A DNA stretch of 64,000 nt, taken from positions 3,610,800-3,674,799 of the forward strand of contig CP126122.1 of NCBI GenBank assembly GCA_030123565.1. The letters are read 5' to 3'. A program made the position numbers and the translations under genes. The notes under the pieces were generated by a model. The model did no database searches. It saw nothing but the letters and a program-made list of their open reading frames with translations, and was not told where the DNA came from. This document shows, piece by piece, positions 4,967-58,020 of the stretch. The first letter of the stretch is position 1. Each line of letters starts with the position of its first letter. The stretch is from Nitrospira sp. GTDB taxonomy: Bacteria > Nitrospirota > Nitrospiria > Nitrospirales > Nitrospiraceae.

Positions 4967-5060
4967 GAAAGTTCTTGAGCGCCGGCCAGCCCCATCCGCA
5001 ACCGGCTCTTCCCCGATCTCGAGGCTGTTGAAAATCAGCTTCATCTTGTATTTCAACTAA

Positions 5061-34835: not shown

Positions 34836-34859
34836 TGAACAAGCGGAACTCCTTGTTCA
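34836..34859. promoter_or_regulatory. hairpin in the leader of the HAD gene
   Basis: Perfect eight-base arms TGAACAAG/CTTGTTCA around an eight-base loop, upstream of the HAD-hydrolase start. There is no T run; it could be a leader structure or operator. Confidence 0.3.
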
Positions 34860-34879
34860 ACGCCGCGGGCTCGGCTACA

Positions 34880-35608
34880 GTGCGCCCAGGCTCGAACAGC
34901 GCCAACCAGGAGGCAGCTCTGCGCGCGATCATTTTCGACTTCAACGGCGTCATCGCCGACGATGAAACACCGCATGTGCAATGCTTTCAGCAGGCATTGG
35001 CGGAGCAGGGACTCGCCTTGACGACAGAGGAATACTACGGCACCTACCTCGGCATGGACGAACGGACCTGTACCGCCGCTCTATTGGAAAAGCGGGACGG
35101 GTCCTGCGACGCCGCCCTACATGCCGAGATCATCGAGCGGAAGGCCGCCCTCTTCCGTGACCATACCGCACAACATCCTCCGGCATTGTTTCCGGGCGTG
35201 GTGGAATTCGTTCAACGGGCGGCGGAACGGTATCGGTTGGCGGTTGCCTCCGGCGGCAGGCGCGAACAAATTCTCGCTGCACTGAAGAACAGTCCCATCG
35301 AACAGGCGTCCGAGTTGATCGTCTCCGCCGACGAATGCGCCGTCGGCAAACCGGATCCTGCGATCTACGAGGTTACGCTTCGACGATTGAACGCGCGCAT
35401 GCCCAGGCCGCCGCTGCTCCGAGCCGGTGAATGTCTGGTGATCGAGGATTCTCGCGCCGGGATTCTGGCAGGCCTGAAGGCTGGCATGCGCGTCCTCGCG
35501 CTCATAACCACCTACCAGGCGCCCCAACTGAGCGATGCGCACCTCGTCCTTACGACCTTGAAAGACATCGACCCGGCCGACCTCGCCAGGCGAATATTTG
35601 AAGCGTAA
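34880..35608 (+). CDS. HAD-superfamily hydrolase (beta-phosphoglucomutase-like)
   Basis: 242 aa from GTG 34880, 229 aa if it starts at CTG 34919. Motif I IIFDFNGVIADDE has Asn where the second Asp usually is (D-F-N). The alpha-helical cap follows, then motif II VASGGRREQI and motif III/IV SADECAVGKPDPAIYEVT with ECLVIEDSRAGILAGLKAGM. It belongs to the PGM/phosphatase subfamily; substrate unknown. The start is unusual: AGGAGG at 34908-34913 sits 5 bases before an in-frame CTG, and the only other candidates are GTG 34880 and TTG 34853, both without a ribosome-binding site. Confidence 0.87.
   Translation: MRPGSNSANQEAALRAIIFDFNGVIADDETPHVQCFQQALAEQGLALTTEEYYGTYLGMDERTCTAALLEKRDGSCDAALHAEIIERKAALFRDHTAQHPPALFPGVVEFVQRAAERYRLAVASGGRREQILAALKNSPIEQASELIVSADECAVGKPDPAIYEVTLRRLNARMPRPPLLRAGECLVIEDSRAGILAGLKAGMRVLALITTYQAPQLSDAHLVLTTLKDIDPADLARRIFEA
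34908..34921 (+). promoter_or_regulatory. ribosome-binding site followed by possible CTG start
   Basis: AGGAGG (34908-34913) spaced 5 bases from CTG (34919-34921), in frame with the HAD hydrolase and just before its first conserved strand (RAIIFDFNG). Suggests a rare CTG initiation codon. Confidence 0.45.
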
Positions 35609-35651
35609 GGGAAAGGGAGGCTAGCAGGCTGTTGAATACAGAAGCACCCCC

Positions 35652-35882
35652 GGATGTTCAAAAAGGCCGTCCAGCGAGGACGCAGCGAGGTCCGCGACGC
35701 GAAGAATAATGAGCGTCACGTGTGCGGACGCCGGCGAGACGGTGAGCCGGCCGTGTCTTGAGGCGAACCGTTACATTCTTACCCACCCACCCTGAGCCTC
35801 CCAGGACAGGCTCTGCGCCCATGGCCGTACGTTGAGCCTCTGAACGACGCGAGAACAAAGCTGGCGGACTTTTTCAACATCC
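35652..35882. repeat. intergenic repeat with terminal inverted repeats (MITE-like)
   Basis: 231 bases bounded by GGATGTTCAAAAAGGCCGTC(CAGC) and, inverted, GGATGTTGAAAAAGTCCGCC(AGC). Its inner part (GAGCGTCACGTGTGCGGACG, then GGCGAGACGGTGAGCC) matches the second copy at 57155-57335. It lies between the HAD gene and a convergent exported-protein gene and codes for nothing convincing. This copy has an extra internal stretch of roughly 100 bases that the second copy lacks. Confidence 0.65.
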
Positions 35883-35903
35883 CCGCTAGGGATTCGGTAG
35901 GAC

Positions 35904-36299
35904 TTAGAACGGAATGCGGATACCCATCTGGAATTCGTTCGGCACCATACCCTTGTTCAACGATTCGCCCAAGAGGTGTTGTTGCGGAAACGCCGACGAC
36001 GGACCCAACGCCCGATCGCGCTCCGTCGCATACCCCCCGCCGAACCCGGCGCCGACATAGGGGATCAAGGTCTGTTCGTTGATCTGCAACCGTCCGCTCA
36101 ACGTCGGCGTCTGCCGAAACAGATCCAGGCGCTGATCGCTCAGGGCGGGAGCCTGCGGCACGGCGATCAATGACGGGGCACGAAAAACACCGCCTCCCGG
36201 AGAATCACTGGAAGGCGCTTCGGCACAGGCAATTCCACCCCCCGCAGCGAGGGACAACCCCGCGACGAACAGCGATCGGAACACCCACTCGTTCTTCAT
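35904..36299 (-). CDS. exported glycine/proline-rich small protein
   Basis: 131 aa from ATG 36299: signal peptide (MKNEWVFRSLFVAGLSLAAGGGIACAEA), then a mature part with QTLIPYVGAGFGGGYATERDRALG and a C-terminus ending MGIRIPF. The terminal Phe and short aromatic strands hint at an outer-membrane beta-barrel fragment, but the protein is too short for a porin. An ATG at 36320 would add seven residues ahead of the signal peptide. No family recognised. Confidence 0.72.
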   Translation of the reverse strand: MKNEWVFRSLFVAGLSLAAGGGIACAEAPSSDSPGGGVFRAPSLIAVPQAPALSDQRLDLFRQTPTLSGRLQINEQTLIPYVGAGFGGGYATERDRALGPSSAFPQQHLLGESLNKGMVPNEFQMGIRIPF

Positions 36300-36536
36300 G
36301 CCCACTTCCGCCCGTTCCATGATTTCTTCGCGTTCTGACCCTACCATTCACCATACTCCATCCCGCTCCCGGCGACAAGGCGCTTCCCTATCGCTCGGAA
36401 AGAATCCTGGTCGTTGTAAGGCGGACGACGGTTCTGGATTTCGGCATGACCGGCAACCTTGATTATGTCGATACGCCCGATTACTCTTCCTATAGGGCGC
36501 AGTTCCATTTGAACGGCAAAGCGGGATTTTTCGTTC

Positions 36537-57136: not shown

Positions 57137-57154
57137 CGGATGCGATCTTGCGGC

Positions 57155-57335
57155 TGATCAAAATGGTTGTGAACGAGGCCGCAGGTGAACGCAAACCGGA
57201 GGCGTACCCTTGGGGGTACGTTGAGGGGGCACGGCGCGATGGACAAAGAGCGCCACGTCTGTGCGCGCCGCCGAGACAGTGAGGCGGCAAGGCACCCTAT
57301 AGCTCGAACAAAGTTGGCAGGCGTTTTCAGCACCC
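57155..57335. repeat. second copy of the MITE-like intergenic repeat
   Basis: About 180 bases matching the 35652-35882 element in order: GATCAAAATGG, then GAGCGCCACGTCTGTGCG and GCCGAGACAGTGAGGCGG, ending GAACAAAGTTGGCAGGCG and TTTTCAGCACCC. The imperfect terminal symmetry is weaker than in the first copy. It lies between the AIM24-like gene and the M48 peptidase gene. Confidence 0.6.
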
Positions 57336-57336
57336 G

Positions 57337-58020
57337 CTACTCCGATACGGGAATGAATTGACGTATCCACGCCCCAAAACTTCCCGGATTGCGGCTCTGA
57401 ATATAGACGACACCGGGTCCGCGGAAGCGGCAGACAAGCCCTTCGCCAGACGTGAGGCTGGCGATCCAGCCGGATGAAGCCTTCTCGATGTTGTAGGTCG
57501 TGGTGGCGGTCCAGGCGACCAGGTGGCTGTTATCGACGATGTATTCCTCGTTCGGCTTGAGCTCGATTTTGTGCACCGCGCCGAAACTGTTGAGGATGAG
57601 CTGGCCGGTTCCGCTGATCTTCAGAATGAAAAATCCCTCCCCGCCCAGCAAGCCGCGCGTGAAGCTCTGCATCTTGCTCTCGATCTTCACGCCTTCCGCC
57701 CCGGCCAGGAATCCGTCCTTCTGCACCATGTATTCGTTGACGCCGTCGAGATCCATCACGACGATTTCGCCCGGCACCGTCGGCGCCAACAGAACCTCTC
57801 CCGCGCCCCGGCTTGCCCGCAGCGTTTGAAAGAAAAACTTCTCGCCGCTCAGCATTTTGCGCGAGAGGGCGCCCAGGAAGCCTCCCTCCATCTTGCTTTC
57901 GATGTCGATGGTCGGCGAGGCCGCCACCATCGCGCCGGACTCAGCCTTGACCGTTTCACCGTCGTTCAAATAGACGCGCACCATCGGGAACGCGCCGGGG
58001 TAGAGAATCTCGCTCTTCAT
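57337..58020 (-). CDS. AIM24/TIGR00266 family protein
   Basis: 227 aa all-beta protein. VRVYLNDGETVKAESGAMVAASPTIDIESKMEGGFLGALSRKMLSGEKFFFQTLRASRGAGEVLLAP (pieces) is the TIGR00266 signature, with repeated GGF/GGEG turns and WIASLTSGEGLVCRFRGPGVVYIQSRNP at the end. The family is conserved but functionally unassigned in bacteria, with a trypsin-like barrel related to mitochondrial AIM24. No signal peptide. Confidence 0.93.
   Translation of the reverse strand: MKSEILYPGAFPMVRVYLNDGETVKAESGAMVAASPTIDIESKMEGGFLGALSRKMLSGEKFFFQTLRASRGAGEVLLAPTVPGEIVVMDLDGVNEYMVQKDGFLAGAEGVKIESKMQSFTRGLLGGEGFFILKISGTGQLILNSFGAVHKIELKPNEEYIVDNSHLVAWTATTTYNIEKASSGWIASLTSGEGLVCRFRGPGVVYIQSRNPGSFGAWIRQFIPVSE

Follow-up and report, generated by a model that had tools for sequence, protein, structure and literature searches.

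Palindromic elements of Rickettsia and Wolbachia nest in other sequence, and non-autonomous elements of the IS200/IS605 type carry hairpins near both ends, insert 3' of a short motif and fold in a strand-specific manner. As portrayed in the accounts cited here, the IS-derived MITEs RUP, Correia/NEMIS and ERIC are, like the family described below, short, bounded by inverted ends and mostly intergenic. The ends of RUP resemble those of IS630-Spn1, its proposed mobiliser, and the 155-bp form of the Correia element contains a 50-bp internal sequence (PMC2229807). RUP, BOX and SPRITE insert into one another (PMC10969869), and the Rickettsia RPE are small palindromes that insert into other sequence (PMC2229807, PMC3733652). 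E. coli IS5 duplicates a 4-bp target of the CTAG/CTAA kind (PMC11677980). GTAG and CGTC REPs are small palindromes of 20–40 bp present in many copies, some of whose dimers lie within larger palindromes; the CGTC type is described as having no dedicated transposase, with stems of 8–9 bp and loops of 4–5 nt (PMC3733652). The main text of that article contains 0 mentions of Nitrospira, and in the literature on Nitrospira repeats, judged by titles and abstract openings, we recognised no description of the repeats reported here. In its table, RepRanger (PMC12306157) includes N. moscoviensis, and palindromes of the genus have thus at least been counted.

The window analysed here is a stretch of 64,000 nucleotides from a Nitrospira genome, in which an initial annotation had described a MITE-like repeat with matched ends at 35652–35882. 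The inverted ends can be read directly from the sequence as a left hairpin arm at 35652–35676 (+; GGATGTTCAAAAAGGCCGTCCAGCG) and a right arm at 35860–35882 (−), the parts whose variable dinucleotide is compared across copies below; in this copy the arms read GGATGTTCAAAAAGGCCGTCCAGC and the near-complement GCTGGCGGACTTTTTCAACATCC. The limits, however, were drawn too narrowly. From the sequence, and from filled versus empty orthologous sites, the complete A-type MITE spans 35621–35889 (no strand assigned), CTAG to CTAG, with its body at 35625–35885. The left CTAG (35621–35624, +) is a probable 4-bp target copy, judged by the equal tetranucleotides that flank members across the family, and the right CTAG (35886–35889, +) is likewise probable from the family's tetranucleotide counts. 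Between the left CTAG and the left arm lies a diverged outer left end, CAGGCTGTTGAA..., with a short tail (35625–35651, +; sequence and copy comparison), and by eye this tail is longer in several other copies. The element sits between two convergent genes, upstream at 34853–35608 (+) and downstream at 35904–36347 (−), both open reading frames and each a flank conserved in relatives.

No transposase lies inside the element, as the annotation had stated. What it does contain is a nested two-hairpin module, hereafter the core, at 35688–35759 (+), which matches our covariance model R1 with 99.3 bits (E 5.6e-19). The related copy that had been reported at 57155–57335 is a degenerate A-like element at approximately 57150–57338 (+; sequence and copy comparison), with degenerate ends and a core at 57225–57292 (+; R1 73.8 bits, E 3.5e-13); both window cores belong to the training set of R1. 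The inner blocks common to both copies are real, yet the copies do not simply represent the same element twice, because the shared blocks constitute a separate module. The nesting had thus been missed: there are two things, one within the other, and the shared inner blocks are the inner one. A second internal palindromic insert (CACCCTGAGCCT..AGGACAGGCTCTG) occupies approximately 35770–35824 (+), as delimited by eye from long versus short copies; by eye it is present in the long copies (CACCCTGAGCCT...AGGACAGGCTC).

The further claim of an end fragment near 5030–5050 could not be confirmed. There, GGCTGTTGAAAA is exact at 5023–5034 (+), and no second end or interior was seen alongside. End-like 12-mers have 6 matches in the window (3 of them within the element itself) against 0.44 expected, and the 17-mer at the 5030 site recurs twice genome-wide, with 2 mismatches each time; on these 12-mer and 17-mer searches the site is a lone 12-base match of only putative family membership. 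An ungapped inverted-repeat finder returned 0 pairs on the window element, where mismatches probably break its 9-base seeds. Terminator-like sites numbered two on the minus strand of 35560–35960 against 0.4 expected, one of them within the element (35682–35668), and none was found on the plus strand of the same interval. Any effect on the neighbouring genes, such as the ending of transcripts, would be a by-product.

The repeat is abundant in its own genome, a single contig of 4,616,681 bases. A search with the window element gave 66 BLAST pieces, with 40 of 75 first-look candidates scored and the last ones at chance level, and the second copy as query gave 43, the last again at chance level. 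By eye the copies form a mosaic of short hairpin elements, one-module forms and long forms with the second insert; the window copy is a long form, and some other repeats have just the internal module in common with it. Comparison of the enclosing inverted ends separated class A, CTAGCAGG[AC]TGnnGAAAAA, class B, CTAGCCCGCATTATTCATGA, and class C, in which the outer stems are GC-rich and of no fixed sequence; in the remaining rows of the comparison the best inverted pair was no better than one shuffle. At 0–1 mismatch the A pattern has 55 matches in the genome and the reversed pattern 0, and the B pattern has 26 at 0–3 mismatches against 0 for its control. The window copy, whose diverged ends are more than 1 base off the A pattern, is absent from those 55. 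Among A-type copies the same variable dinucleotide occurs in both arms in 48 of 59, where permutation gave a mean of 13.7 and none of 10,000 permutations reached 48. Many additional copies with conserved ends were recovered genome-wide, and the annotation's own refuting condition, a lack of such copies and of conserved ends, was checked and did not apply.

Class B itself represents a second MITE-like family, with copies at G000:C1:184999-185195, 934050-934266, 2544333-2544596 and elsewhere (L265–L273), some of them flanked by TTAG..TTAG or CTAA..CTAA. At G000:C1:949230-949300 (L274) lies an element of about 70 bp made of two A-type ends and hardly anything between them; on the right it ends at a predicted stop codon.

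A-end pairs in the genome are spaced either about 205–320 bp apart, enclosing MITEs, or 1,323 bp apart, enclosing an insertion sequence of 1,325 bp from CTAG to CTAG. Two copies of this autonomous element are present, each bounded by CTAGCAGGCTGCGGAAAAAC on either side, and the element's 363-aa protein matches the IS5-family transposase model NF033581 (285 bits against a cut-off of 140) and contains the Pfam domains DUF772 and DDE_Tnp_1. Similar insertion sequences occur in the relatives G023, where the copy is flanked by TTAG..TTAG, and G026, where the contig ends within the copy. As a separate observation, another insertion sequence of the IS5_4 type is present at G000:C1:365386-366243 and 1792657-1793514, with different ends in L356 and L359 and 14 equal-scoring copies in G003.

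Orthologous sites show the window copy as an insertion. Its slot was compared in 19 of 28 relatives, one of them unreadable, and in 16 of the 18 readable ones it is empty, with 24–60 bases between the aligned flanks; the empty-slot relatives include G006 (flanks 89–91% identical). The other two slots are occupied by a different A insertion (G014) and by a B-type insertion (G028). Empty slots in G025 and G005 hold a single CTAG at the stop of the right-hand gene, and in G014 the insert is flanked by CTAG left and right. Ends (at the level of the family), transposase family, 4-bp duplication and filled versus empty sites all agree with membership in the class of IS5-derived MITEs. The proposal of a non-autonomous element is borne out by the further copies, the conserved ends shared with an IS5-family partner, the empty slots and the equal 4-bp flanks, the last of which, found around many copies, also answer the question of target-site duplications. 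The annotation's other proposal, a regulatory RNA-type repeat, is neither favoured nor disfavoured by these results. As judged from sequence, the repeat forms a true MITE family of an ordinary kind for which a good candidate transposase exists, and Nitrospira, a genus central to nitrification, gains a MITE family with a likely mobiliser. We consider it probable that the MITE is moved in trans by this IS5-family DDE transposase and carries a second, nested mobile module.

The MITEs often end on stop codons. Across 89 loci scanned in the own genome, 42 A or B elements had both ends recognised, and in 22 of these (0.52) the terminal tetranucleotide coincides with a neighbouring gene's stop codon, as called by codon-usage gene predictions made in this analysis; a smaller first set of 55 loci and 26 elements had 14 on stops. 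YTAR is present at both ends of 24 of the 42 and missing at one or both ends of 18. The two tetranucleotides are equal in 19 of the 24 (12 CTAG, 2 TTAA, 4 TTAG and 1 CTAA, of which 5 pairs are non-palindromic) and unequal in 5. The neighbouring genes are tandem for 22 elements, convergent for 6, divergent for 1 and unclassified for 13, and window gaps of at least 60 bp comprise 27 tandem, 5 convergent and 8 divergent. The window copy lies outside the 42 and does not sit on a stop codon.

Such positions could reflect survival in place of targeting, with only harmless insertions persisting, and we give this reading somewhat less than an even chance. Stops already hold 15 of the 65 stop-located or intergenic YTAR sites of the window (0.23) and 6 of the 19 CTAG sites (0.32), but the observed share exceeds this availability (binomial p 3e-5 at 0.23 and 0.005 at 0.32), for caller-predicted genes and an expected share drawn from one 64-kb window. 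A stop-codon target would give the gene-end location a plain reason: the IS5-family transposase would move the MITEs, and duplication of the 4-bp target would leave the stop codon intact.

The core is a different kind of object. It measures about 70 nt and folds into two hairpins, each delimited by pair counts: P3 (35690–35729, +), with stems of 6+5 bp, a 12-nt loop that is mostly GA-N-GAATAA-N'-GA and a 6-nt 3' bulge that is mostly ACGTNT, and P4 (35730–35751, +), with a 6-bp stem and a 10-nt loop that is mostly GAGNYGGTGA. Predicted folding energy is within chance (z −0.82 and −1.04), and the structural evidence is the covariation. In 24 own-genome cores, the same sequences from which the structure was drawn, 97.5% of 404 cells are paired, 10 of 17 pairs have changed on both sides, and double-change cells number 49 against 15.2 in shuffles. 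A further 109 distinct cores, found on other contigs and in other genomes, were aligned to the model and gave 1772 Watson–Crick, 26 G-T, 8 A-C and 13 other cells, which are not independent of one another. The stems thus covary strongly and the loops are largely conserved, and the excess of G-T over A-C cells suggests that one strand probably folds, as RNA or single-stranded DNA.

At E ≤ 0.5, R1 matches the own genome in at least 37 places (150 of 3,553 first-look candidates scored), on both genome strands. Matches at E ≤ 0.001 occur in 37 of 61 genomes: the own genome and all 28 further genomes of its genus, 7 of the 8 family members outside the genus and, weakly, 1 of 24 genomes from elsewhere in the order; with at most 81 candidates scored per genome, high core counts are lower bounds. 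Stretches of the inner motif carry labels of Nitrospira, Nitrospirae, Nitrospirota or Nitrospiraceae in 117 of 120 cases among the matches listed. The other three listed (L141, L147 and L193) lie in MAGs whose labels are Gaiellales, Aquabacterium and Acidobacteria, and these core matches may reflect binning errors or contamination, or horizontal transfer.

Cores are found in both arms of A elements, in B elements, in C units and, in two loops, inside other cores. Among 143 distinct cores, the five-letter junction reads GCGAG 66 times and CTGAG 14 times, and at least 96 junctions end in GAG, with GGG, AAG and more among the others; the last two junction letters are model positions 1–2, which imposes them in part, and many rows stem from one and the same host site. 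The 3' end is mostly GTGTCTT or GTGTCC-like, and by eye about 1–4 host bases after the junction are missing where a core is present. When the flanks of an inner core were joined, 5 of 6 candidates regained a nearly full outer core spanning the join (own 1048083, own 907275, L171, L178 and L141; 42.6–51.1 bits), and the sixth (L186) gave a partial match of 28.0 bits. Since the profile was trained on own-genome copies, it does not provide an independent test of the two own cases. Control joins gave no match across the join in 108 trials; 8 of the 108 matched wholly on one side, at up to 50.0 bits, because a second core lies close by. L171, L178 and L186 share one junction and look like one lineage.

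A C unit occupies the orthologous place upstream of prfC in many species and has no recognised IS-type ends. Nine of 29 prfC loci have a core match there, some degenerate, and many others show, by eye, a C hairpin without a core (the region is not visible in L343 and L354). In 21 of the 29 loci the outer stems could be parsed, and an arm matches its own partner better than those of other copies on average (means 29.3 vs 16.4), with its own partner the best match in 8 of the 21. The unit at this place (L327–L355) is a hypervariable palindrome whose outer stem varies between species and is often still complementary, and it is closely followed by a conserved stretch that resembles a promoter, TCCGACTGATAAAAG.

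The core seems able to move on its own and would be recognised through its structure, on one strand. Tentatively, we suggest that a Y1 (HUH) tyrosine transposase supplied in trans is what most likely moves it, with single-stranded DNA as the substrate. Across 29 genomes of the genus the mean number of cores is 28.7 with Y1 (n = 19) and 6.6 without (n = 10), and core counts follow Y1 matches (Spearman 0.76) and not those of IS5_4 (0.28), the latter including many below the family cut-off. In a PGLS on the prfC tree of 27 genomes (G001 and G026, which have no usable prfC, are left out), Y1 presence gave p = 0.0009 and IS5_4 p = 0.29; the link is a correlation across 27–29 genomes in which core counts are partly lower bounds. 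Our confidence is kept low because no core lies within about 1–1.5 kb of the 23 Y1 genes examined (of 75 matches listed), the only hits being at chance level (E 1.9), and because cores persist in the 10 of 29 genomes without a Y1 match. No autonomous element with core-like end hairpins was seen at these 23 loci either. The loss of 1–4 host bases likewise speaks against an HUH mechanism, since a clean HUH insertion would not predict it. Under three assumed replichore borders no replication-strand bias of cores was found, with an uncertain origin and terminus (the locus-sampled skew changes sign near 1.6 and 4.0 Mb).

The fullest version of this idea, to be taken with still more caution, sees the core as a hyperparasite, a mobile pair of hairpins some 70 nt long. 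It would be a minimal single-stranded DNA transposon that cellular Y1 transposases move in trans, inserting after GAG in other mobile palindromes and in itself and so building nested composite hairpins across the family that includes Nitrospira. Two Y1_Tnp-domain proteins of the own genome, of 296 and 284 aa (L062 and L063; G000:C1:3772153 and 2042258), have no cores alongside. A gene carried beside the core was sought by clustering adjoining ORFs and inspecting the 25 top clusters by eye, and was rejected: no recurring gene family was seen, the largest cluster (14 loci) being frames through the repeat and the next reaching 6 loci.

Three other readings compete with a mobile core, all of which we regard as unlikely. 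One holds that the core is a structured RNA domain, at an mRNA 3' end, as an insulator or as a protein-binding RNA, kept by selection and spread by the elements as a ready-made module. Stems that change while loops and bulge are largely conserved would fit it, as would the 26 G-T against 8 A-C cells that point to one folded strand, and the C-type unit that many species have ahead of prfC, whether or not it holds a core. Yet outer cores are interrupted by nested ones, just 9 of 29 prfC loci have a core, and cores lie on both genome strands with ordinary folding energy. A known structured RNA, for its part, is ruled against by Rfam, which gave 0 matches over the window at the gathering cut-off and, at E ≤ 5 over 35600–35900, a lone match of 13.6 bits at the edge of the element, outside the core. 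Of about the same low probability is the view that only the MITE is mobile, the core having been captured a few times and then spread with its hosts. A elements, and the B element of one slot, do come and go between species, one nested junction recurs in three loci, and most core junctions repeat a few host sites. Still, the core would have had to enter two A arms, B and C hosts and two core loops, and C units, which have no recognised IS-type ends, stand at the same prfC place with and without it.

The least probable of the three attributes the matching arms to template switching in replication, which would copy one arm onto the other and yield covariation without a selected structure. Matching is indeed seen in MITE arms (48 of 59) besides the core stems, and the variable outer stems at prfC match on average; the conserved loops, the ACGTNT-like bulge and the G-T excess would be left unexplained, and the own partner at prfC is the best in only 8 of 21 loci. 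The link between cores and Y1 genes makes the question of movement testable in vitro with short oligonucleotides.

Set beside the described systems, the MITE is ordinary, and the self-nesting core is unusual, with a mechanism that is only proposed. Unlike RUP, Correia and ERIC, the Nitrospira MITE has an IS5-family partner and a target that is often a stop codon, and its internal insert is itself repeated and structured, occurring in different hosts and inside itself. Palindromes of Rickettsia and Wolbachia differ from the core in sequence and host, and a narrow query on the nesting of those elements returned nothing. Like CGTC REPs, as far as these are described in the article cited above, the core seems to be without a dedicated transposase. 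It differs from REPs in having two unlike hairpins, a bulge, loops of 10–12 nt and no terminal GTAG/CGTC tag, and no core flanks the 23 Y1 genes examined, for which reason a classical REPtron was rejected. With IS200/IS605-type elements it shares hairpins and a probable fold on one strand, and its numbers follow Y1 genes; it departs from them in its loose motif, in the host bases that seem lost and in having no autonomous relative at the 23 Y1 loci. Some of the tested defining features of each group fail in the core. Its occurrence across different repeats and inside itself makes it a natural case for studying how repeats without their own transposase move. On present comparisons it would be a family without a match in Rfam or in the literature searched, closest in spirit to REPs and to mini-elements of the IS200/IS605 type.
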